DNA of 64,000 nt from positions 248,001 to 312,000 of the forward strand of contig NZ_CP011310.1 of assembly GCF_001077815.2 (NCBI RefSeq), written 5' to 3'. Below the pieces are notes generated by a model. That model was not told the origin of the DNA. It ran no database searches and saw only the letters and a list, made by a program, of their open reading frames with translations. The number at the start of each line of letters is the position of its first letter. The stretch's first letter is position 1. The position numbers were made by a program, and so were the translations under genes. This document shows positions 17,337 to 28,702 of the stretch, piece by piece. The stretch comes from Aurantiacibacter atlanticus. Its GTDB lineage: Bacteria; Pseudomonadota; Alphaproteobacteria; Sphingomonadales; Sphingomonadaceae.

Positions 17337-18047
17337 TCAGCGCGCATCGCATTGTTCGCGCAATGCGGTTGCGACCTCTTCGCCTTCGGACTTTTCGATA
17401 GTTTCGGTCACGCGACGAAGGTGCGAACAATCAAGGTTCGCACCCTGGTCCAGCGCGAGCGCGAGTGTGGCGGCCAAATCGGCAGGGTCGGCCTTCTGGG
17501 ACAGCGGTGAAAGCGCGTTGGCCTGCCAACGGCCAAAGGCTGCGAGACGGCGGGCAAAAGCCTCCTGGCCTTCCGGTGTCGTAATGAGCCGGGCGGCTAC
17601 ATCCAGTGCCGGTTCGTTCATCTTGCCAGTGGCAAGCAATGCACTTACGCGCTGGGCGGCAATGTCATGCGCGCCTTCTACCAGCGCTGCCCGGGCGGAC
17701 GCATATTGCGCAATCGGCTCCCGCCATCCGCGCACGCTTGCCGCTTCAAGCGCCGCAACACTGGTGTCGCCATGATCGTTCATCGCGGCTGCCAGCGACA
17801 GCTTCGCCAGATGCTCTGCCGCAATCGGGCGTTTTTCTACCAGAGCGCGCGCTTCGGCCTCTGCAGTCGCTCCATCCTGCACCACCAGGGCAATACGTGC
17901 GCGCTGTTCAGCAGCGAAACCACTGAAGGCGGCTGGCACTATCGGCGCGAGGGCGGGCGCAAAGCGCGCCTTGCGATCGAGCTGCGCGAAGACGGTAACC
18001 ACCGCAAGCGCGGCGATGGTAGCAAACCAGAACAGCCTGTAGATCAT
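17337..18047 (-). CDS. Membrane-anchored helical-repeat protein of unknown function
   Basis: About 236 residues. One N-terminal transmembrane helix (YRLFWFATIAALAVVTVFA) is followed by an Ala-rich, all-helical region resembling TPR-like solenoids, and two Cys residues near the C-terminus (LDCSHL, LREQCDAR) that could form a disulfide. The ATG at 18047 overlaps the stop codon of the O-antigen-ligase-like gene by four bases (ATGA), so the two are translationally coupled. A role in that glycan step is inferred. I do not recognise the family. Confidence 0.7.
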   Translation of the reverse strand: MIYRLFWFATIAALAVVTVFAQLDRKARFAPALAPIVPAAFSGFAAEQRARIALVVQDGATAEAEARALVEKRPIAAEHLAKLSLAAAMNDHGDTSVAALEAASVRGWREPIAQYASARAALVEGAHDIAAQRVSALLATGKMNEPALDVAARLITTPEGQEAFARRLAAFGRWQANALSPLSQKADPADLAATLALALDQGANLDCSHLRRVTETIEKSEGEEVATALREQCDAR

Positions 18048-19411
18048 GTTGCATCCCTTGGCAGTGGGGCAAGCAGGACAATGAGCAACGCCGCCGCACA
18101 TAAAAGCGATTGATTGCGAAGCGGATAGTCCAGCAATGATTGCAGCGCGATGCAGCCGATCCCTACGCCTGCACCCCAATTCAGCCACTTCGCACCAGCT
18201 AAGCTGTTTCCGAGCGCAGCACGAGCGCTCCAGCCGAGCCAGACGAGCGACAGAAGCAAGGTAAAGATGCCGCCTTCTATCGCAATTTCGATAAAATCAT
18301 TATGCGCCCGGCCAGCGCGGCGCGGAGAAACGTATTCAAGCGATTCATAGACCTGGAACACCTCATCGAAGGTGCCCATGCCGCTGCCCACAGGCCAATA
18401 TGCTTGCGCAGCGTAGATGCCATCCTCCCACATCTCCGGGCGATCGGTCTGACCTTGGGTGAATCTCTCAAAGCTGTCTGCTGCACGCCCACCCATCGCG
18501 GCAGAGCCAAGAATTGCGAGCAGGATACCGAGCCCAGCAACGCCAGCAAGGATCCCTGCAGGATTAACAACGGGACGTGCCCCTCGCCGGCCCTTCAATA
18601 TGGTTGAGACGACTCTGAAGGCAGTGAATGCCAGGACGATAGCCAGCAGCACCATGGAAGATCGTGACTGCGTGATGATGACGCCTACCGCAAGTATGGA
18701 CCCTGCCCCTACGCTCGCCAGCAACCATTCGCGGCGATGGGGTATGGGGCTGGCCACAAGAAGAGCGAGCGCCAGCACGAAGAGCAAGCCCGTTGAATTG
18801 CGATTGGCGAATGTGGCGTAGAGAACATCAGGCTTGGATGTGATGGGATAAAGCAGGCCAAAGCTGTTGGCCGAGCCGAGCTGGACTATACCCAGAAGCA
18901 ACGCAGCCAATGCCAGCACGATAAAAGTTCGCACGAGACGTAACCTGTCAGGTAAAACCAGCATGCTCCCCAGCACAATCATCGTAGCCGGTGCCAGCGT
19001 GCCGCAAAAGGCGACGAGTGTCCGCGCCCTGTCTACACTGACAGGAAACCACTGCCCCTCCTCCAGCCCGAGCACGGCAAAACTTGCTACCACCAATTCG
19101 CGACCCGGAAGTGCCTGCCATAATCCGGAAGGCAGCGGGACAAGCTGGATAAGAGGCAGAGCCATAGTGACAATCACCAGCACAAGCAGCCAGCGTGGTC
19201 CATTGCGAGCAAAGCCGACTACCGCACCACGATTCATCGCAAGGATGGTAAGGGCGAAAAGCTGGATAGCGAGATTATGGAGACCATAGGCAACACCGCC
19301 TCCGCCAAGAGAAATGGCAAGCGCCAGCAGGGCCTGCAATTGCAGCACGATGCCAATCCGTAGGCGGAAAAACGATTTGCCCGGCATCGGTGCGTGCGGC
19401 TCCAGCGTCAT
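18044..19411 (-). CDS. O-antigen ligase family (Wzy-like) membrane protein
   Basis: Polytopic membrane protein of about 455 residues with roughly a dozen hydrophobic segments. It has the large periplasmic loop expected for WaaL/Wzy proteins; FERFTQGQTDRPEMWEDGIYA and GRAHNDFIEIAIEGG (about residues 310-390) fit the conserved region, including the catalytic-type His. It likely ligates or polymerises lipid-linked glycan at the periplasmic face. It is one of three proteins of this superfamily in the window. It is coupled to the downstream membrane-anchored protein. The 3' ends of lptA and the lasso B2 gene flank this block. Confidence 0.85.
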   Translation of the reverse strand: MTLEPHAPMPGKSFFRLRIGIVLQLQALLALAISLGGGGVAYGLHNLAIQLFALTILAMNRGAVVGFARNGPRWLLVLVIVTMALPLIQLVPLPSGLWQALPGRELVVASFAVLGLEEGQWFPVSVDRARTLVAFCGTLAPATMIVLGSMLVLPDRLRLVRTFIVLALAALLLGIVQLGSANSFGLLYPITSKPDVLYATFANRNSTGLLFVLALALLVASPIPHRREWLLASVGAGSILAVGVIITQSRSSMVLLAIVLAFTAFRVVSTILKGRRGARPVVNPAGILAGVAGLGILLAILGSAAMGGRAADSFERFTQGQTDRPEMWEDGIYAAQAYWPVGSGMGTFDEVFQVYESLEYVSPRRAGRAHNDFIEIAIEGGIFTLLLSLVWLGWSARAALGNSLAGAKWLNWGAGVGIGCIALQSLLDYPLRNQSLLCAAALLIVLLAPLPRDAT

Positions 19412-19549: not shown

Positions 19550-19807
19550 CTAGCCGCCAGTACCCGGCGAAGCATCGTCTTCATCAGAATCCCCAATCAC
19601 GACGACAACGACGCCGGCAGCGATCAGAAGCGCGATGAGAATGAGCAGCGCATCGCTCCCGCCACCCAGATTTTCGCCAGCTGGCATATTAGCAGAAGCA
19701 CGGTCGAGCGAGACACCTGCGGTATCCGCACGCGTATTGGCTTGTGCGGCAATAGGTGCCAACACGAGGCCAGCAGCGGCGGTTGCGGCAAGAAATTTCT
19801 TCAACAT
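19550..19807 (-). CDS. Small secreted or membrane protein of unknown function
   Basis: An 85-residue protein with a clear signal peptide (KKFLAATAAAGLVLAPIAAQA). A short polar region follows, then a second hydrophobic helix (ALLILIALLIAAGVVVVVIG) and an acidic Asp/Gly/Ser-rich tail. After export it would be a one-span protein with a very short acidic C-terminus. It has its own terminator and probably its own promoter, so it may be strongly expressed. It has no PEP-CTERM motif. The layout is like small sphingomonad proteins seen near exopolysaccharide genes, but I cannot name a family. Confidence 0.7.
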   Translation of the reverse strand: MLKKFLAATAAAGLVLAPIAAQANTRADTAGVSLDRASANMPAGENLGGGSDALLILIALLIAAGVVVVVIGDSDEDDASPGTGG

Positions 19808-19945: not shown

Positions 19946-20413
19946 TTAGCCAAGAATTGGCCGGTAAGCTTCGACATCTCCGCCAGTAACTATTTCCCTG
20001 CCATACGTCAGCCAGGCATGTGATTCGAAAGCGCGGCCCTCCCCGCCAACGACCCCGATGACAATGCTGCTGGCGATCCCTTGTTCCAACAGCCAGTCCT
20101 GCGCCGCCATGGCCTGCACAAGGCAATCGGAACGGAAGGGCATGCGATACGCTACGCGCGGCAGCACCCAGGACAGTTCAAGCACCATATTGCGGTCCAA
20201 AGAGTGTGCATTTGCTGGCGAGCGGCCTTGCAGTTGCGCCCGCGTGTTACGCCCATCGACATCATTCGTATGAAAATTATGATGTTGAAAGCGGGCTGTG
20301 ACGAGATGTTTGATGGCGCGCAGGCACAACATTGCCAACCCGGTCATTCCCCCCGCCGGCCTTGGCGCCGACAATGGCCGCGCTATCGGATCGTCTGGTG
20401 CATCAGAGGCCAT
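19946..20413 (-). CDS. Lasso peptide biosynthesis B2 protein (leader peptidase)
   Basis: A 155-residue transglutaminase-like cysteine protease that cuts the leader from a lasso precursor before ring closure. The pattern CLVQAMAAQDWLLEQG, then IGVVGG, then SHAWLTYG, then GGD gives a Cys97-His132-Asp146 triad as in McjB C-terminal/B2 proteins. It lacks the PqqD-like leader-binding part; that is the separate gene at 24517. It is transcribed away from the cyclase, separated by a divergent region of about 110 bases plus a tiny ORF. The assignment rests on motif and context and is strong given the neighbouring cyclase and precursor. Confidence 0.85.
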   Translation of the reverse strand: MASDAPDDPIARPLSAPRPAGGMTGLAMLCLRAIKHLVTARFQHHNFHTNDVDGRNTRAQLQGRSPANAHSLDRNMVLELSWVLPRVAYRMPFRSDCLVQAMAAQDWLLEQGIASSIVIGVVGGEGRAFESHAWLTYGREIVTGGDVEAYRPILG

Positions 20414-20526
20414 GAAGCGGCTATGTCACGCGCAAGCGCGCTGGCCAAGTATCGACATTGTCATCGCGCTGTCGCAGGGATGCGTGGAGATGAGCAAAGG
20501 TCAGGACTCACGAACAGGAGAGAACA

Positions 20527-20634
20527 ATGCTGTCGACGCAGTTGAAGGCAAAGATGGGCGACCCAGCCTATCTCGACCTTCACGGTCGACCAAGACCTTT
20601 GCCGGATGGGATCCGAACAGGTAAATTGAAGTGA
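20527..20634 (+). CDS. Tiny 35-residue ORF coupled to the lasso cyclase; unknown
   Basis: ATG at 20527 is preceded by AGGAG at 20516-20520 with a six-base spacer, one of the better ribosome sites in the region. The peptide starts MLSTQLKAKMGDPAYL and ends GIRTGKLK. Its TGA overlaps the GTG start of the cyclase (GTGA), so it would feed ribosomes to a gene with a poor site of its own. It has no lasso leader pattern (Tyr-x-x-Pro-x-Leu) and no signal peptide. It could be a leader-type coupling peptide, a small regulator or chance. I favour coupling but cannot prove translation. Confidence 0.4.
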   Translation: MLSTQLKAKMGDPAYLDLHGRPRPLPDGIRTGKLK

Positions 20635-22508
20635 GCGGCTTTGCTGGCATTATCAGGCCGGGCGGTGGTGCATCGACGGTTGAGCTAATCCGCGCAATGG
20701 CCGCGGCGATTCCCGCCCCCTCACATGCCGACACCTTCAACTGGCAAGGCGAAGATGCAGCATTAACGCACCGCCCGCTTTACAGTACGGCGCAAGCGCT
20801 GGAAGCCGAGCAGCCGCTGGCCAGTGTGGACGGCCATCTGGTAGTTGTATTGCACGGTTATCTGGCGAACCATGCCGAACTAACGGCGATGCTGAGACAG
20901 GCCGGATCGCGTCTTCGCTCGGCCGCAGATGCAGAACTCGTGCTGCAGGCTTACCGCCTATGGGGACGCGAATGCGCTAGCCGGATTGATGGCGAATTCG
21001 CATTCGCCATTTGGGACACCAAACAGCGCGAACTGTTTTGTGTGCGCGATCATCAGGGCCTGCGCCCCTTCTATTATCATTTTGACGGGATTCAGCTTGC
21101 GTTTGGTTCAAGCACCGGCGCGGTGGTGGCAGCGCTGGGTCGTGAGCCGCAACCGAACCCCGGTTTCATGGCCGAAATCATGTCAGATCGCTGGTATTCA
21201 ATCGATGAAACTGTCTGGCGCGAAGTCAAACGGCTGCCGCCCGCTCACAATTTGCAACTTGCTGGCGGACAGCTATCGATCAAGCGGTACTGGTCGCTGC
21301 CCACTGAGGTAACGCTAAACTATCGCAGCGACGGAGAATATTTCGAGCACTACCGCGAAGTGTTTGCAGACTGCGTAAAAAGAGCTTCACGCACGCATTC
21401 GCCGCTGGCTGTCGAAGTGAGCGGCGGGCTCGATTCATCGGCAATTTTTGTCATGGCGAACGCTTTGATGAAACGCGGTGAACTAGGCTCCCACGAACTG
21501 CGCGGCTACACATTGAGAGGGTCGGAAGGCTCGCCAGCAGATGAACAGCGCTTCGTCGATGCCGTGGCTCGCACAACAGGTCGACATATCAGCTCTTTCC
21601 CTCTTGCCCGACCGCCGCTCAGTTGGTTCAACGAGCAGGCGCGACAATATCGCGATATCCCTACGTATCCCAATGGCGCCATGTCGCTGGAAATGGATCA
21701 GCAACTGGTCGCTGACGGCTGCATGGTCAAACTTACAGGTGTTGGCGGCGATCAATGGCTCGACGGATCGCGGCGTTATTATGGAGAGGCGCTGCGCGGC
21801 GGCGATGCTGCTGGCTTCATGACAAGCCTGCGCGCGGACTTGCGAGACCTGGGCAAACCGCGAACAGCTGAACTCGTCGCCCGCGGCTTCTTGCGTCCGC
21901 TGGTGCCTGCCCGATTGCGCGCCAAATTGAGGCAGCACACGTCAGATCCGCATGCTGAAAATCTCGACGAATCCTGGCTTTCACCCGAGATGCGAGCCGA
22001 ACTCGATCGGCGCAGCAAGGCCCGCGACGACTCTTTGCCAAGACATGACCGTGATCGACACAAGGTGCAGAAACTTACCTTCCCCTTCCTGCCGCTCGCG
22101 CTAGATTTGATCGAGCGCCAATCGGCTAGCCTTGGCTTTGAAACACGGCACCCGATGCTTTCACGTAAGTTTATCGAATTTTCAGCGACAACGCCGGAAC
22201 GCATGCGTCTGCGTGGGTCTGTTGGCAAATACATCCATCGGCGGGCCCTCGTCGGAATTTTGCCACGGGAGATTGCCGAACGAAACTGCAAAGCGGAATT
22301 CAGCACAACCTTTGACGGGAACCTTGAAGGTATTCACGCATTACTCGTCGAAGCGCAAAATACAGGATTTGAATGTCTTGTTGAGCGGGACAAAATAGAT
22401 AAGCTGATGGAAGCGTGGGGCGAACTATCGATTGACGAGACTCCGATCTGGAAGCTATGGGGTATTTACGTAATTGCAGCGCTCTATCTGCATAGAAAGA
22501 TGGCGTAA
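20631..22508 (+). CDS. Lasso peptide cyclase (asparagine synthetase-like C protein)
   Basis: A 625-residue asparagine-synthetase-B homologue. In lasso pathways it adenylates the side-chain carboxylate of Asp/Glu in the core and joins it to the new N-terminus. The ATP pyrophosphatase loop SGGLDSS is at residues 264-270. The N-terminal glutaminase-like domain starts MSGFAGI, where true asparagine synthetases have Cys2; the Ser there means no glutamine hydrolysis, as expected for lactam formation. GTG start at 20631, overlapping the tiny ORF. The precursor gene follows after 22 bases. General AsnB activity is unlikely for these reasons. Confidence 0.9.
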   Translation: MSGFAGIIRPGGGASTVELIRAMAAAIPAPSHADTFNWQGEDAALTHRPLYSTAQALEAEQPLASVDGHLVVVLHGYLANHAELTAMLRQAGSRLRSAADAELVLQAYRLWGRECASRIDGEFAFAIWDTKQRELFCVRDHQGLRPFYYHFDGIQLAFGSSTGAVVAALGREPQPNPGFMAEIMSDRWYSIDETVWREVKRLPPAHNLQLAGGQLSIKRYWSLPTEVTLNYRSDGEYFEHYREVFADCVKRASRTHSPLAVEVSGGLDSSAIFVMANALMKRGELGSHELRGYTLRGSEGSPADEQRFVDAVARTTGRHISSFPLARPPLSWFNEQARQYRDIPTYPNGAMSLEMDQQLVADGCMVKLTGVGGDQWLDGSRRYYGEALRGGDAAGFMTSLRADLRDLGKPRTAELVARGFLRPLVPARLRAKLRQHTSDPHAENLDESWLSPEMRAELDRRSKARDDSLPRHDRDRHKVQKLTFPFLPLALDLIERQSASLGFETRHPMLSRKFIEFSATTPERMRLRGSVGKYIHRRALVGILPREIAERNCKAEFSTTFDGNLEGIHALLVEAQNTGFECLVERDKIDKLMEAWGELSIDETPIWKLWGIYVIAALYLHRKMA

Positions 22509-22530
22509 AAGCGCGACGAGGAAACCTGAT

Positions 22531-22671
22531 ATGACTACCAAGACAAGTATTAATACGGGCAAGGCTCGCTATTCTACGCCGCAGCTGAAGGAATTTGGCT
22601 CGGTTCGCAACCTTACCGGCGGTAGTGGCGGCACAAGGGGCGATGGCCAACTCGGCCAGACGAGACTCTGA
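22531..22671 (+). CDS. Lasso peptide precursor
   Basis: A 46-residue peptide with a strong GAGGAAA ribosome site six bases upstream of the ATG. The leader contains the lasso recognition pattern YSTPQLKEFGSVRNLT (Tyr-x2-Pro-x-Leu-x3-Gly, residues 14-29) and ends with Thr29-Gly30, placing Thr at the conserved -2 position. The predicted core is GSGGTRGDGQLGQTRL (residues 31-46). Its only acidic residue is Asp at core position 8, so an eight-member Gly1-Asp8 ring with an eight-residue tail is the single possible lactam. There is no C-terminal Ser, the usual target of lasso-associated kinases. The start, leader and ring assignment are inferred from family rules. Confidence 0.9.
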   Translation: MTTKTSINTGKARYSTPQLKEFGSVRNLTGGSGGTRGDGQLGQTRL

Positions 22672-22833
22672 CCATCTCGCCTGAATATCCGACATTCGCG
22701 AATTACTTATGACCTCAGTTTGAATGCTGGGTTGATATCGCGTGGAATTCATTGATCTTACCTTGCGATGCAGGGTGGGGCCAATTTTTACGCCGGTTTC
22801 CTGGGTTAGCATCACCGGCTGAGCTGGACAGAT

Positions 22834-23679
22834 ATGTCTAAGGTCCTTGCAGAACATCTCAGCTATTTCCATTTACCGCGGCGATACGATGCCTATGCCC
22901 GCACCATTGCAAGTGTTCTATCTGGCGGCGAAGCGTTGGCTGACCTTGGCTGTGGCTTCGGCGTTCTAGGCATCCAATGTGTGCGACACAACGCTCGCCA
23001 TGTTTGGGGCATCGATCACTCGGACGCGATAGAAATCGCGCGCGAAACGGTGGATCGTTCGGGTTTGGCCGACCAATACACCTGCATCAAAAACTCCACA
23101 TTCCAGGCCATTCTTCCTGAAAAAGCCGATTTGGGCGAAGTGCGTCTCGATGAAAATGTTGAGAAAGCACTATCGTTCTCGGCTACGCTCACGACTGATA
23201 GGGACTGCATGCTGCATGGCCTTGCTGGATGGTTTGACTGCGAGTTGGCTGATGATGTGTGGATGACCAATTCACCGATCGTTCCGGAAAGCATCAGGCG
23301 GCCGCAGGCTTTTTTCCCGCTGCAGCGCCCTATTGAAGTGAAGCAGGGCGATAGCTTCGATATCGCCTTCCGTATCCGTCATGGTCAGGGGATTTTTGCC
23401 TGGACGGTGACACCCGCAGACGGCGCGCCGATTCAGCGAATGAACACCTGGAAAAGCCGCATTCTTACCGACAAGGATCTGGAGACGCGGCCGGAATCAC
23501 CTTTGCGTATGAATAGCAGGGGAACCGCGCGCCTCAAGACTCTCGAGCTGATTGATAATAAACGCACGGCTCACGAGATTGAAGCATTGGTACTTGAAAC
23601 CTATCCGGAACTTTTCGCCACACCAGAGGAAATTTCGCGGTTCCTGCGTGCCGAACTGGGCGCGGGGACCGAAAGTTGA
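22834..23679 (+). CDS. PRMT-like SAM methyltransferase in the lasso cluster, catalytic segment apparently missing
   Basis: 281 residues. The N-terminal part has SAM-binding motif I (ADLGCGFGVLG, residues 36-46) and the acidic post-I loop (GIDHSD, 59-64). Residues about 115-190 (LSFSATLTTDRDC to HGQGIFAWTV) resemble the C-terminal beta-barrel of protein arginine methyltransferases. Between ADL (98-100) and LGEVRLDENVE the roughly 100 residues that normally carry the double-E catalytic loop are absent, while the reading frame stays open. Residues 231-276 resemble the second half of a PqqD-type winged helix and might contact the leader. It may be inactive or non-catalytic. The kinase start overlaps its stop. 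Confidence 0.7.
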   Translation: MSKVLAEHLSYFHLPRRYDAYARTIASVLSGGEALADLGCGFGVLGIQCVRHNARHVWGIDHSDAIEIARETVDRSGLADQYTCIKNSTFQAILPEKADLGEVRLDENVEKALSFSATLTTDRDCMLHGLAGWFDCELADDVWMTNSPIVPESIRRPQAFFPLQRPIEVKQGDSFDIAFRIRHGQGIFAWTVTPADGAPIQRMNTWKSRILTDKDLETRPESPLRMNSRGTARLKTLELIDNKRTAHEIEALVLETYPELFATPEEISRFLRAELGAGTES

Positions 23680-24524
23680 CGGTCTTCTCAATGCTGGGCC
23701 CCAGGCCCCAGAAACCTTTACCCAATTCACCTTATGACCGCTGGCTCTCGCCAGACGGCTATGAAACCGCGCAATTCTATCGCACCGCAACCGGCTATTG
23801 CGTTCGCTTCCCGGATCAGGCGGATTTCATCATCGATGCTGATAGCCTGGCAGTTGAGGGTATCCCTGTTCGCGAAGATGACCAGGATCAAGTGCTCGTC
23901 TTGTTTCATAATTCCATCGTGCCGATGCTGAACAATCATCGCGGGCAATTACATATGCACGGCAGCGCGGTCAGGTGCGGCAATGGCGCTATCGGTTTTC
24001 TTGGCCTGTCGCGCGGCGGCAAGACCACGCTTGCGGGTGCGTTTGCGCGCCCAGGCCATCCTTTCCTCACCGAAGATGTGCTTTCAATCAGGCATGATGA
24101 GGATGGCTATACGATACTCCCCAGCCGCCCCGTACTGCGATTGTTTCGTGATAGCGCCGCCCAATTGTTATCACGCGGACCAGCGCCGGCTGATGAGGCC
24201 AAGATTGCCATTCCGGCAGGATCGGATCTTCCCCATTGGTCCGAGCCGTGCCAGCTTTCCGCCTTGTTTCTGCTTGGCCCCGGCAAAAGCGAAACGACGA
24301 GCATCGAACTCATGCAATCGGCAGAGGCGCTCACCCATCTGATGCGGCACTCTTTCATACTCGATGTCGATGACCGGCATCGGTTAAAGGCCCATTTTGG
24401 CAGGATAGCGGAGCTTGCACAGGGGACGAACAGCTTCGCGCTTGACTATCCGCGTCGCTATTCCGAACTGGATAAGGTGATCAACACGGTATCGAGACTG
24501 GTAACAGGTGAACAAAATGACTGA
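23676..24524 (+). CDS. HPr-kinase-like lasso peptide kinase
   Basis: A 282-residue protein with the HPr kinase/phosphorylase C-terminal fold. MHGSAVRCGNGAIGFLG leads into the P-loop GLSRGGKTT (residues 110-118), followed by FLTEDVLSI with the acidic Mg-binding residues. Homologues in paeninodin-type lasso clusters phosphorylate a Ser in the core. TTG start at 23676 overlaps the methyltransferase stop (TTGA), with GGGGA seven bases upstream; an ATG at 23691 is an alternative. The substrate is uncertain because this precursor ends in Arg-Leu, leaving Ser2, Thr5 and Thr14 as acceptors. Confidence 0.8.
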   Translation: MTVFSMLGPRPQKPLPNSPYDRWLSPDGYETAQFYRTATGYCVRFPDQADFIIDADSLAVEGIPVREDDQDQVLVLFHNSIVPMLNNHRGQLHMHGSAVRCGNGAIGFLGLSRGGKTTLAGAFARPGHPFLTEDVLSIRHDEDGYTILPSRPVLRLFRDSAAQLLSRGPAPADEAKIAIPAGSDLPHWSEPCQLSALFLLGPGKSETTSIELMQSAEALTHLMRHSFILDVDDRHRLKAHFGRIAELAQGTNSFALDYPRRYSELDKVINTVSRLVTGEQND

Positions 24525-24810
24525 CGCGATTGATTTGCAAGGCAGTTTTGCACCGGGTGACGATGTGGTCGGGCGCGAGGTAGGCGGAGAAACAATTCTC
24601 CTCGACCTTGGCACAGGCATTTATTTCGGCCTCAATGAAGTGGGCGGAAAGGTGTGGCAATCACTCGATGCCGGTCAAAAATCCATTGGTGAGCTGTGCG
24701 ACACCATCGAACAGCAGTTCGACGCGAAGCGCGAAACTATCGAGCGCGATGTTACGGCCTTGATCCAAGACCTTGTCGAGCGCGGGCTGGTGAACCAGCA
24801 GGCAGCCTAG
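24517..24810 (+). CDS. PqqD-type lasso B1 protein (leader-binding RRE)
   Basis: A 97-residue PqqD-family protein that binds the precursor leader and delivers it to the B2 protease. Typical features are VGREVGGETILLDLGTGIYF, then GLNEVGGKVWQSLDAG (strands and first helix), then a C-terminal helical pair ending LIQDLVERGLV. The ATG at 24517 has AGGTGA six bases upstream and overlaps the kinase stop by eight bases; a GTG at 24508 is possible. Its stop codon overlaps by three bases with the convergent exporter gene. Together with the B2 protein it forms the split B pair seen outside microcin J25 clusters. Confidence 0.85.
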   Translation: MTDAIDLQGSFAPGDDVVGREVGGETILLDLGTGIYFGLNEVGGKVWQSLDAGQKSIGELCDTIEQQFDAKRETIERDVTALIQDLVERGLVNQQAA

Positions 24811-26462
24811 GAGGCGGCAACCTCTTCAAATCGACCATCCACGACCTTTACAATCCTGTCTGCCAGGGCAAGCAAGGCTCTGCGATGGGTGATGATAATT
24901 ACGGTTTGCCCCGATAAGGCACCCTTGATCGCTTTAACGAAGAGCGCCTCGTTTTCGAGATCGAACATTGATGTGGCTTCATCGAAAATGATGATCTGTG
25001 GGTGCAGCAGCAATGCCCGGGTAAGCGCAATGCGTTGGCATTGCCCGCCAGACAACCGCACGCCATGATCGCCAATCTGGGTATCCAGCCCCTTGGGCAG
25101 ATCCGCAACAAAAGCTTCCGCCTGCGACAGTCGAAGCGCCTCGGCAATCTGCTCGTCGCTTGCTTGCGGACACCCGAAAACAACGTTCTCACGCAGACTT
25201 CCACTGAAGAGCATGGTGCGCTGGGGCACATAGCCGATATATCGCCGCAACGCCTGAACCTGAAGGTTTTCTATTGGCGTCCCGTCCAGTGTAATTTGAC
25301 CTTGATCCGCATCGTAAAAACGTAACAGCAAATTGACGAGTGTCGATTTCCCGGCTCCGTTTTCGCCAGTGATTGCGATCACTTCACCAGCAGCAATTTC
25401 AAGATTGGCACCCCTTAAGGTGACCTGGCGACCGGGATAGGAAAAATGGACGTCGCGAAAGGCAAGTGCGCCGCGGACTGTGTCCGGCAACAAGCCTCGG
25501 TCATATCCCTGCTCAGGCTCCAGCGTGATGACGGCCTGCAACCGCGCCAATGTGCCCCGCGCCAGCTGCAATCGTCCCCACAGTTCGGCCATTTGGCCAA
25601 TGGGCCTGGTTAGCAGTGCCGCATATAAAAGGGCGCTGAAAAGCTCTCCTGGTGTTCTGCCACCCTCGCCAATTTGTAATCCTCCCAGCAATATGACAGT
25701 CAGCGCGGCCAATGCTGCGATGAGCCCCACTAGAGGCGAAATTACAGAGTTGATCTGTTCATTCAGTGCACTCTTGCGCCGCGCGTCTTCGATTGCCGCG
25801 GTATAAAGGTCAAACTGCGTATCCTCCACCGCGAACGCCTTTGTTGCGGAAAGCATTTCGAGATGCATTTCCGCCTTGTTGAACACCTCAGTCTCGGCGT
25901 CGCGCATCTTCGTGGCGTTCGCCCGCAGCTTACGTCCGGAAAATCGCAGGAGAATATAGAAAATCGGCACAAGAATCGGAATCAGTAGCGCCAGCAAAGG
26001 ATCGATTACAAACAGGATCACAATGGCGCCTGCTGCGGTCAGCACCATGGCCGGAACAGTGGCAATGGTGTTAGTCAGGAAATCGCTGAGACGGCTGATT
26101 TCGTAAGTCATGAGCGATAGCAATTCGCCCTGATTGCTACGGTTGTGAAATTTCATCGGCAGACGCTGGATCTTGCGATAGGTGTCGAGCCGTAATTGAG
26201 CGAGAATAACTGCGGAGGTCCTGGCGGACACCATTGCGCCCGATATCTTGAAAAGTGTCGACAGTATCAACAGTGCAACCAGCGCCAGAACAATGGTGGA
26301 AGTGCTGCCAATGCGCGCTTCCACAACTCCGCCAAGCAATTGCCCAGCCAGCCACGGTAACGTCAGGGTCGTTAGTGCACCCATTGCCTGCAGAGCACTG
26401 ATGCGAGCAAGTTCAGTACGAAAACGCAAAGCCCTTTCAACCAGGAAATGGATCTGGCTCAT
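24807..26462 (-). CDS. ABC exporter of the lasso cluster (D protein)
   Basis: About 551 residues. A six-helix exporter domain (about residues 15-300) precedes an ATPase with GENGAGKST (Walker A), LSGGQ signature, IIIFDEAT (Walker B) and ITHR (switch His). Exporters of this type secrete the mature lasso peptide and give self-protection. I chose the ATG at 26462, which overlaps the stop of the upstream nucleotidyltransferase gene (ATGA), so both are in one minus-strand operon facing the plus-strand kinase and B1 genes. An upstream in-frame start at 26507 would add 15 residues. No peptidase C39 domain is present, which fits leader removal by B2. Confidence 0.9.
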   Translation of the reverse strand: MSQIHFLVERALRFRTELARISALQAMGALTTLTLPWLAGQLLGGVVEARIGSTSTIVLALVALLILSTLFKISGAMVSARTSAVILAQLRLDTYRKIQRLPMKFHNRSNQGELLSLMTYEISRLSDFLTNTIATVPAMVLTAAGAIVILFVIDPLLALLIPILVPIFYILLRFSGRKLRANATKMRDAETEVFNKAEMHLEMLSATKAFAVEDTQFDLYTAAIEDARRKSALNEQINSVISPLVGLIAALAALTVILLGGLQIGEGGRTPGELFSALLYAALLTRPIGQMAELWGRLQLARGTLARLQAVITLEPEQGYDRGLLPDTVRGALAFRDVHFSYPGRQVTLRGANLEIAAGEVIAITGENGAGKSTLVNLLLRFYDADQGQITLDGTPIENLQVQALRRYIGYVPQRTMLFSGSLRENVVFGCPQASDEQIAEALRLSQAEAFVADLPKGLDTQIGDHGVRLSGGQCQRIALTRALLLHPQIIIFDEATSMFDLENEALFVKAIKGALSGQTVIIITHRRALLALADRIVKVVDGRFEEVAAS

Positions 26463-27601
26463 GCGGAATCCGGCTTCAGGTGGCGAAACATCGCCCGGAC
26501 CAGCCAACGCAGACGAAGCAAGAATTTCGGTGAGTTGCGGGCATGGGGAAAGGTGCTGCGCAAATGATCGTCATTAGGCAACATCAGGCGCAAGACGTAA
26601 GACACCTTGTCCCCTATGCCCCTGCTGGCTGCTAAATCGCTGGCAATCCTGCGTCGACGGCTTGCCTGCGTAAGATACGACATGACTTTGCCGCCCTGCC
26701 GCCTGTCAGCCAATTGCGCAAACACTGGTTTAGGAACGCAATCCTCCGACAGCGCACGAGCCTGATCCAGCGCCGCGCAGATGACAGCAGAAATCTCGTG
26801 GCGTTCAGCCAGCCGGACCAGTTCTTGCCACTGTTCATCATCCAATGTCCTGCACAGATACCGGTAATCCATTGTCCAGATCAGCCGATCGCCCTCCGGC
26901 ACTTTCTCGCCCTCTATTGCATAGCCCGATATGCTATGCTCACACTGGTTAAACGCACCTTGCACCAGCGCTCGCACCGGATCGGCTGCCCAGGCGGACG
27001 AATGCAGGCGCGGAAGCGGGATGCTGTTTTCTAGCATATCGTCAGCACCCAACACCGTCTGAAGCCTTGGAGAATCCACCACGCGCCAGTGCAGGTCGAC
27101 TACGTGCTCAAACCCTATTCCGGTGTCGAAATACCAACTTTCCTGAAACAACAGCCCGTGTGGTGGCGGCGACAGGTTGAAACCGTCGCGGCGCAAGATC
27201 CTACGCGCGTCTTCAAGCCGGGTTTCGCAGATCAGGATGTCGCTATCGCCGCGGCGCCGCCATGCGGGATTGCCATATACGCTGTAAGCCAGCGCAGTCC
27301 CCTTCATCACGACAGCTTGGATACCCTCCTGTTCAAAAGCGTCGAAAAGCTGGCGGAGCATGCGGAGATGCGATTCCTCCCACAAGGCCTGCATTTGCGC
27401 TTCGTCCAGCACCGAGCCACGCAATCGGGGCGGCCACTTATCTACGTTTTTTACCGTATCACAAAGGGCCAGAGAAATGCCATGAAACCGGATCCGGCGG
27501 ATCGCCAGATCGATTGAGGCATCACTATAGAAATCGGGAAGGCAAGCAGAGCCACCTTCTCCCATTTCAGAAGCAAGCCAAGAATCAATCTGCGGCGCCA
27601 T
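26459..27601 (-). CDS. Nucleotidyltransferase-family lasso tailoring protein
   Basis: About 380 residues resembling the uncharacterised nucleotidyltransferase family (NTP_transf_5). KGTALAYSVYG (residues 100-110) and RRRGDSDILI (Asp119-x-Asp121) give the metal-binding pattern. In paeninodin/pseudomycoidin-type clusters a protein of this family acts after the kinase and further modifies the phosphorylated residue. That role is inferred here from co-occurrence with the kinase. The ATG at 27601 starts a two-gene operon with the exporter. About 200 bases separate it from the divergent rfbA. Confidence 0.75.
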   Translation of the reverse strand: MAPQIDSWLASEMGEGGSACLPDFYSDASIDLAIRRIRFHGISLALCDTVKNVDKWPPRLRGSVLDEAQMQALWEESHLRMLRQLFDAFEQEGIQAVVMKGTALAYSVYGNPAWRRRGDSDILICETRLEDARRILRRDGFNLSPPPHGLLFQESWYFDTGIGFEHVVDLHWRVVDSPRLQTVLGADDMLENSIPLPRLHSSAWAADPVRALVQGAFNQCEHSISGYAIEGEKVPEGDRLIWTMDYRYLCRTLDDEQWQELVRLAERHEISAVICAALDQARALSEDCVPKPVFAQLADRRQGGKVMSYLTQASRRRRIASDLAASRGIGDKVSYVLRLMLPNDDHLRSTFPHARNSPKFLLRLRWLVRAMFRHLKPDSA

Positions 27602-27814
27602 AATCCTGCTACCCGTTTAAGCGTTCAACCGGGATGGTTACTCGGCGCAAGCCTCAGTGCAATTCATATCCTCTATTTGCAAGGCGCAAGAGGCTGTATA
27701 CTTCGTTGCAAGACAGCAGATTAGCGGTTGACGCGGGCAGGGGCCGTTGCAATGCGCTAAGGTTCTTCCCTTACCTAACGAACTGATTTGATCAGGATGG
27801 CGGAAAAGCAGACG

Positions 27815-28702
27815 ATGCAGCACAAACGCAAGGGAATCATCCTCGCAGGAGGGTCCGGCACACGGCTCTATCCGCTGACCAGAGGCGTCTCGAAACAGCT
27901 GATGCCGGTTTTTGACAAGCCGATGATCTATTACCCGCTCAGCACGCTGATGCTGGCGGGCATTCGCGATATCCTCATCATCACCACACCTGAAGACCAG
28001 AACCAGTTCCAGCGAGTGCTCGGAGACGGTTCGGATTTCGGCGTGGCCCTCAGTTATGCCGTCCAGCCCAAGCCGGAAGGACTGGCACAAGCCTTTCATA
28101 TCGGCGCGGAATTCATAGGCGAAAATCCCAGCGCGCTCGTTCTGGGTGACAACATATTTTATGGCCATGGCCTGCCTGGTTTACTTCAGAGCGCTTCGAG
28201 CCGCGAAACCGGCGCGAGTGTTTTTGCCTATCGCGTCAACGATCCGCAGGCCTATGGCGTCGTCGCGTTTGATGCCGAAGGCAGAGCATCCTCGCTCGAG
28301 GAAAAACCTGCCAACCCCAAATCCAACTATGCCGTAACGGGCCTGTATTTCTACGACGGAACCGTTGTTGACAGAGCCCGCGATCTCCAGCCGTCTCCGC
28401 GTGGTGAGTTGGAAATCACCGACCTCAACAGGCTGTATATGGATGATGGCGCATTGTCGGTGGAGATGATGGGTCGCGGCTTTGCATGGCTTGATACAGG
28501 CACACACGGGTCTTTGCTTGATGCTGCCAGCTATGTCCGCATCACCGAGGAGCGACAGGGGCTGAAGATTTGCTGTCCTGAAGAAATCGCATGGCGGCAG
28601 GGATTTATCGATGATGCCGGGCTCGAGGCTATCGCCGCGCCGCTCAAGAAATCGGGCTATGGCGAATATCTGATGGCATTGCTGCGCGAAGGCGCGCGCT
28701 AA
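27815..28702 (+). CDS. rfbA: Glucose-1-phosphate thymidylyltransferase
   Basis: First enzyme of dTDP-L-rhamnose synthesis, making dTDP-glucose. [16 protein letters not shown] is the nucleotide-binding signature at the N-terminus, [16 protein letters not shown] the conserved substrate region, and VLGDNIFYG carries the metal-binding Asp. About 295 residues from ATG 27815 (family length); starts at 27797 or 27788 would add six or nine residues. It is the first gene of an overlapping rfbACDB operon. The stop TAA shares its last base with the rfbC ATG. Confidence 0.95.

Follow-up and report, generated by a model that had tools for sequence, protein, structure and literature searches.

The lasso peptide cluster of Aurantiacibacter atlanticus raises the question of whether the methyltransferase encoded in its midst modifies the peptide, and what the relatives of this enzyme modify in other genomes. 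The cluster occupies positions 19946-27601 of the window, a 64,000 nt stretch of contig NZ_CP011310.1, where eight reading frames lie at the positions and on the strands that an earlier, sequence-only reading had assigned to them. Judged by its encoded domains, it is a real lasso cluster of a known kind (split B1/B2, kinase type). Its methyltransferase gene carries a large in-frame deletion and its core peptide has no methionine; across a set of 65 related loci, every intact copy of the enzyme is accompanied by a methionine-bearing core. We consider it reasonably likely that two statements hold together, namely that the window yields an unmethylated lasso product and that the link between enzyme and methionine in the relatives is real.

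An in-frame deletion in the methyltransferase gene

The methyltransferase gene (22834-23679, plus strand) encodes 281 residues, and alignments with full-length relatives place in it an in-frame deletion of 94 residues with its junction at D99-L100 (approximately 23128-23133). The comparison covers 119 other relatives listed of 309 found, each of which has residues in 93 or all 94 of the columns deleted in the window. In particular, 10 of 31 invariant columns are lost with the deletion, the deleted stretch includes the part aligned with the active loop of protein arginine methyltransferases (PRMTs), and residues 103-204 of yeast PRMT1 have no counterpart in the window's protein. By these alignments the gene is a deletion remnant, and the proposal of a complete, self-sufficient pathway that includes a methyltransferase fails. 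Its PRMT-like ancestry, also proposed earlier, stands; the accompanying activity (+14.02 Da) does not, given a deletion remnant beside an arginine-type core, and an addition of 14 Da to the window's product is unlikely because the deletion removes a catalytic segment. A search of the window's genome found no other methyltransferase piece at E ≤ 0.001, and the idea that the missing segment is encoded at another genomic site was dropped on that result. The closest full-length relative among the matches listed is P0005 of Erythrobacter alti, whose DNA lies outside the collected loci.

The remnant is not visibly decaying, because its frame is open and, beyond the deleted stretch, it retains 20 of 21 invariant columns, including the GCG motif. 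The deletion may have been tolerated, or may have come with a change of the core, and the remainder may be kept for another task: as a leader-binding protein or scaffold, through its C-terminal helical domain, or for translational coupling to the kinase. Retention of this sort, which we regard as somewhat unlikely, would suit a deletion that is in frame and followed by little further decay; moreover, if the kinase is translated from the TTG at 23676, its start overlaps the methyltransferase stop codon. The scaffold variant is weakened by the comparison of the C-terminal domain with B1, the leader-binding protein of the cluster, which reached an hhalign probability of 12%, and by the Pfam matches of 60 enzyme relatives, in which PqqD is absent from the 25 families shown out of 40. 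At this hhalign value, identity of the domain with PqqD or with a recognition element (RRE) of ribosomally synthesized and post-translationally modified peptides (RiPPs) was not established. The C-terminal domain also varies among related loci: a frame change within it splits the methyltransferase at L030:9442-10565, and it is missing from L117, L123 and L128, where the catalytic part is intact.

Intact enzymes and methionine-bearing cores

Relatives were collected by cyclase searches at E ≤ 1e-60 in overlapping genome sets, with matches in 14 of 397 genomes of the family; for three genera, the first of them the window's own, the figures were 21 of 40, 13 of 195 and 32 of 114. An enzyme scan of named contigs gave 16 loci, including two from Mesorhizobium and one from Burkholderiales; other named relatives belong to Erythrobacter, Aurantiacibacter, Alteraurantiacibacter and Porphyrobacter. 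At class level, the enzyme search matched 10 of 385 genomes, four within the family and six outside it, the latter distant (E 1e-31 to 1e-34). Clusters of similar make-up thus recur in dozens of genomes, which is more than chance and answers the earlier call to look for the gene order elsewhere; the GSVRNLTG leader end stands beside the cyclase in many related loci, contrary to the possibility that B2 and cyclase homologues never occur near this leader pattern. The comparison set of 65 comprises the window and 64 other loci, all with a kinase above 100 bits and a readable core; an enzyme is called intact when its catalytic part is present, and the window is coded as enzyme-less. Left out were 10 duplicate loci from named contigs, L031 (kinase below 100 bits), L080 and L084 (loci with neither kinase nor cyclase), L129, L151 and L162 (no kinase), L150 (no precursor found), and L032, L140 and L141 (no cluster or a cut one), while L200 and L201 were fetched later and stand outside the 65-row counts. 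Where a locus has two precursors, as L125 does, composition was counted on the first.

Across this set, 40 loci have an intact methyltransferase and 25, among them the window, do not. Core methionine occurs in all 40 loci with the enzyme, compared with 3 of the 25 without it (22 are methionine-free), and methionine in the tail, after residue 8, occurs in 39 of 40 compared with 1 of 25. Of all 20 residues, methionine has the strongest association with the enzyme (Fisher p = 1.9e-14, not corrected for relatedness); arginine comes second and in the opposite sense, being found in 10 of 40 cores with the enzyme and 22 of 25 without. In terms of composition, methionine accounts for 18.9% of core residues with the enzyme versus 0.9% without, and arginine plus lysine for 2.5% versus 14.7%. 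The conserved leader stretch, used as a control, is flat in both respects, with methionine at 2 of 697 residues versus 0 of 422, and arginine plus lysine at 86 of 697 versus 52 of 422. L201, outside these counts, has both enzyme and methionine.

Further, among 24 genomes with an enzyme-less cluster (one of them 70% complete), only G697 and G712 encode the enzyme elsewhere (E ≤ 1e-20). Their main clusters (L157 in G697, L146 in G712) lack the enzyme and have the methionine-bearing core GSGTMFRDGAVNNSRF, and each genome also holds a stand-alone enzyme with its own methionine-bearing precursor. These methyltransferase-precursor pairs (L080:7695-9119 and L084:7694-9119) have no cyclase or kinase in their 17-kb loci and lie beside a frame that resembles, by eye, a single-strand-binding protein. 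Because their clusters are sisters on the trees, G697 and G712 count as one event.

Trees of the kinase and the cyclase require at least seven state changes for the enzyme, and also seven for core methionine. Restricted to supported branches, they contain four (kinase tree) and three (cyclase tree) independent pairs, in which core methionine changes in the same direction as the enzyme in 3.7 and 2.8 pairs on average and never in the opposite direction. A Pagel-type likelihood test for correlated evolution gave p = 4.1e-7 and 2.3e-6 on the two trees for core methionine, and p = 4.9e-6 and 9.1e-6 for tail methionine. An explanation by linkage alone would have precursor and methyltransferase swapped as one block, with no enzyme-substrate relation between them; the two genes usually adjoin and the supported independent changes are few, both of which suit it. 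However, a block exchange fits poorly with a conserved leader stretch that does not differ between the groups, or with the main-cluster core of G697 and G712, which has methionine though the enzyme is far away (one event), and we find linkage alone improbable.

The lasso precursor of 13 related loci is a fusion with a Peptidase_S74 (endosialidase chaperone) domain at its C-terminus, called by Pfam in L022, L024, L048, L119 and L126, and by sequence pattern in L088, L118, L123, L124, L127, L131, L132 and L133. The fused cores follow the same rule, with methionine in 9 of 9 with the enzyme and 0 of 4 without. By cutting itself off before S-D, the S74 domain could define the C-terminal end of the lasso peptide.

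Putative chemistry of the full-length enzyme and the window's product

The predicted model of a full-length relative (P0012) has a PRMT fold by structure alignment, in which the VIA-align rows span model residues 1-303 and the C-terminal part is barely tested. The glutamates of the double-E loop have a role in PRMTs; here the residues aligned with them are Asp104 and Tyr113, neither of which varies among 60 relatives. The lasso-cluster enzyme differs in this from the type I PRMTs (PRMT1, CARM1, PRMT6), which have the active-loop glutamates and are without its extra C-terminal part; in the window, the active-loop segment is gone altogether. Of these two marks of a PRMT, the fold is present in the P0012 model and the double-E glutamates are absent. 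Since these glutamates are replaced and core arginine goes with absence of the enzyme, the full-length enzyme is unlikely to be an arginine methyltransferase of the usual kind, and arginine was rejected as its substrate on the same grounds. An anti-phage role was also set aside, as the only PADLOC match is a weak one (mad2, 24 bits).

The methionine association, the exchange with arginine and lysine, and the precedent of longipeptin A together suggest that, in the relatives, the full-length enzyme most likely S-methylates tail methionine to a sulfonium (S-methylmethionine). The product would bear a fixed positive charge, which enzyme-less clusters would encode directly as arginine or lysine. 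Longipeptin A, as treated in the available part of a review (PMC11285071), is a RiPP with a methionine sulfonium for which LopH is only the predicted enzyme; it is not described there as a lasso peptide, and LopH is set beside the present enzyme by description alone. The lassomycin-type (C-terminal carboxyl) and PIMT-type (ring Asp) methyltransferases likewise come from lasso clusters, and are set apart from the present enzyme by their description in the available portions of PMC9266682 and PMC8498205, not by sequence. The full scenario, in which a PRMT-fold methyltransferase turned into a methionine S-methyltransferase that supplies permanent charge to lasso tails, with lineages switching between this charge and one encoded as arginine or lysine, and the window caught after such a switch, is offered tentatively and at somewhat less than an even chance.

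Several observations weigh against it. No product has been seen, and an association is not a reaction. A sign test was ruled out because only four and three independent enzyme changes are supported on the two trees; for tail methionine, one opposite pair turns up in a few of the 200 pairings made on the kinase tree; and the Pagel-type test is our own script, run on single trees with some rates at their bound, so that few events can drive it. Among individual loci, L122 has a methionine-bearing core in a genome with no methyltransferase match, L031 pairs a distant enzyme (103 bits) with a methionine-free core, its precursor call being uncertain, and the kinase-less L151 and L162 have methionine with no enzyme adjoining, though the genome of L151 holds the enzyme-bearing locus L150. 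No precursor was found at L150, nor next to the enzyme in L200. In L200 (G1213), the methyltransferase relative adjoins a frame resembling, by eye, the small chain of glutamate synthase. The kinase-less L129, L151 and L162 have the leader end GSVRNLTGGS or GSVRNATGGS and cysteine in the core.

A different use of the methionines would be as Cu(I) ligands in MxM arrangements, with the enzyme modifying something else, for example the backbone or a carboxyl group. MxM or MM motifs in 33 of the 40 cores with an intact enzyme suit Cu(I), which also counts against S-methylation, and the number of methionines reaches 12 in one core (L142). On the other hand, no other residue is tied to the enzyme as tightly as methionine, and its exchange with arginine and lysine points to charge and not to metal; metal binding is consequently a doubtful account.

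If methionine S-methylation is correct, it would add a reaction and an enzyme scaffold to RiPP chemistry, along with a means of installing fixed positive charge in highly stable peptides, and the loci compared, 40 with the enzyme and 25 lacking it, would form a natural series on the role of tail charge. The literature searched, which leaves out most subscription journals, yielded no PRMT-type methyltransferase in a lasso cluster, no methionine methylation in a lasso peptide, no S74-fused lasso precursor, and no mention of the strong link that the present comparison exposed between a PRMT-fold enzyme and methionine-bearing lasso cores; this is not proof of novelty.

In the window, precursor A (22531-22671, plus strand, 46 aa; lasso_leader_L3, 22.5 bits against a cut-off of 19) consists of the 30-residue leader MTTKTSINTGKARYSTPQLKEFGSVRNLTG and the core GSGGTRGDGQLGQTRL (22621-22668). 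The leader carries Y(-17), P(-14), L(-12) and T(-2), a placement that matches the leader requirements in the available portion of PMC10368454, and the precursor has the YxxPxL leader, Thr(-2), Gly1 and ring Asp/Glu by which such peptides are recognized. A ring between G1 and D8 is predicted, and a ring Asp stands at position 8 or 9 in all 65 rows. The unmodified lasso mass of the core computes to 1540.7706 Da, in agreement with the earlier figure of 1540.77 Da. The core is methionine-free, of the arginine type, and ends in Leu. A leader-profile search of 16 kb of the window returned precursor A as its sole match, and a further precursor in the interval from A to the methyltransferase was rejected, as none of 12 small open reading frames listed, A's frame aside, has the leader pattern by eye. 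The window, by its sequence, is thus without enzyme activity as well as without core methionine and, from the enzyme-methionine link in the relatives, its product is probably unmethylated.

It is very unlikely that the remnant is instead active and adds a methyl (+14.02) to the window's peptide, for example at Arg6 or Arg15. Its open frame and retained invariant columns would agree with activity, as would a second, near-identical sequence (P0004, differing at 2 of 281 residues) that has the same deletion and also retains the remnant. However, the missing 94 residues include what aligns with the PRMT active loop, the predicted model of the remnant is weaker than that of the full-length relative (predicted local distance difference test, pLDDT, 85.8 versus 94.0; predicted template modelling score, pTM, 0.63 versus 0.86), and the intact relatives track methionine and not arginine. 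An assembly artefact, with the deletion not in the real genome, is barely credible: the gap occurs in none of the 119 other relatives listed, but the genome consists of 2 contigs at 100% completeness, the gap is exactly in frame, and the slightly different P0004 has it too.

The remaining cluster genes and their setting

The lasso identity proposed for the pathway is supported by Pfam and NCBIfam matches for B2, C, A, B1, D and the nucleotidyltransferase, and the components of a split B1/B2 system are present: a PqqD-like B1, a Cys/His B2 and an Asn_synthase-type (ATP-dependent class) cyclase. B1, the PqqD-like protein (24517-24810, plus strand; PqqD, 75 bits against a cut-off of 23.4), scores under the cut-offs of two lasso PqqD models and would bind the leader of the precursor. 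B2 is a transglutaminase-like leader peptidase of 155 aa (19946-20413, minus strand; lasso_biosyn_B2, 61 bits against 33) that would cleave after G(-1), with C97 and H132 kept in at least 90% of 52 aligned rows. The asparagine-synthetase-type cyclase C (20631-22508, plus strand, 625 aa; Asn_synthase, 119 bits against 21) would link G1 to D8; its SGG.DS loop is conserved, and its best NCBIfam match is a lasso cyclase model, at 299 bits and under the model cut-off of 525. The MsbA-like ATP-binding cassette (ABC) exporter D (24807-26507, minus strand) has both ABC domains, with no peptidase domain among its Pfam matches, and would export the product.

The HPrK-like precursor kinase (23676-24524, plus strand, from TTG at 23676 or ATG at 23691) is identified by its conserved residues, having no Pfam match and weak HprK-related NCBIfam matches. 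His121, the P-loop residue Lys142 and Asp160 are invariant across all 65 rows, and 64 rows have Gly136; in the Asp pair, the first Asp is replaced by Glu in 51 of 65 rows, including the window, and the last is kept in all 65. It would most likely phosphorylate core Ser2 of the precursor; position 2 or 3 is occupied by Ser or Thr in 63 of the 65 cores. The nucleotidyltransferase (26459-27601, minus strand; NTP_transf_5, 114 bits against 31.2) has GDSD at 118-121, keeps K100-G101, G118-D119 and D121 (KG, GDxD) in at least 95% of 54 rows, and would decorate the phosphate with a sugar or a nucleotide. By its NTP_transf_5 match, it would correspond to the nucleotidyltransferase-like protein of the pseudomycoidin type. 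The proposed order of action is B1, kinase, B2, cyclase, nucleotidyltransferase and ABC exporter. We infer every one of these chemical steps, as well as the action of the full-length enzyme on methionine.

The pairing of kinase and nucleotidyltransferase was correctly recognized by the sequence-only reading, but a lasso kinase outside Firmicutes is not new: published examples include the lasso kinase SyanK of Sphingobium yanoikuyae (PMC9266682, PMC8498205) and the bsf cluster of Bradymonas, which has both proteins (PMC10368454). As described in the available portions of these sources, the paeninodin, ThcoK, SyanK and pseudomycoidin clusters have the kinase in common with the window, and in them a C-terminal Ser is phosphorylated. 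Such phosphorylation is impossible here because the window's core ends in Leu; across the set, a C-terminal Ser, the mark of the paeninodin subtype, occurs in 2 of 65 cores. For pseudomycoidin, a nucleotidyltransferase-like protein is needed for a hexose on the phosphoserine, by a route that PMC9266682 leaves open. The bsf cluster, as far as the available portion of PMC10368454 describes it, is closer, with split B1/B2, an ABC exporter, a nucleotidyltransferase, an Asp8 ring, no C-terminal Ser, and an HPrK-like kinase with the pattern H...G..GK(S/T)...DD; BsfK phosphorylates ring Ser3. It differs in Ile(-2) of the BsfA leader compared with Thr(-2), in a D-D kinase pair compared with E-D in 51 of the 65 kinases, and in being described without a methyltransferase.

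Proteobacterial clusters of the astexin/benenodin type carry an isopeptidase and a TonB receptor alongside. The contrast drawn earlier with that type holds for the eight cluster and 10 flanking frames scanned, in which neither has a Pfam match, the rest of the genome not being searched.

The glycan-locus setting was also read correctly. LptC/LptA and an O-antigen ligase (Wzy_C; 18044-19411, minus strand) lie on one side, and RmlA (27788-28702, plus strand), the first of the RmlA/C/D and dehydratase genes, on the other; a scan of the flanking frames and a comparison of loci identify ligase and RmlA as the conserved left and right neighbours. Among 64 cyclase loci, the window included, 52 have the ligase upstream and 44 RmlA downstream in the window's orientation (43 both, 11 neither), some loci ending before the neighbour is reached. 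A search of 19 genomes without a lasso cluster gave a ligase match in 7 and an RmlA match in 12. In two genomes of this lasso-less kind, G419 and G316, these matches are about 0.4-0.5 kb apart, a spacing that resembles the site with no cluster in it. This recurrent place makes a functional tie of the lasso peptides to rhamnose, lipopolysaccharide or the cell surface possible. Between the ligase and B2 lies a small frame of 85 aa (19550-19807, minus strand) that appears secreted, by eye, from a signal-peptide-like start and a hydrophobic stretch, and frames resembling it are present in several related loci.

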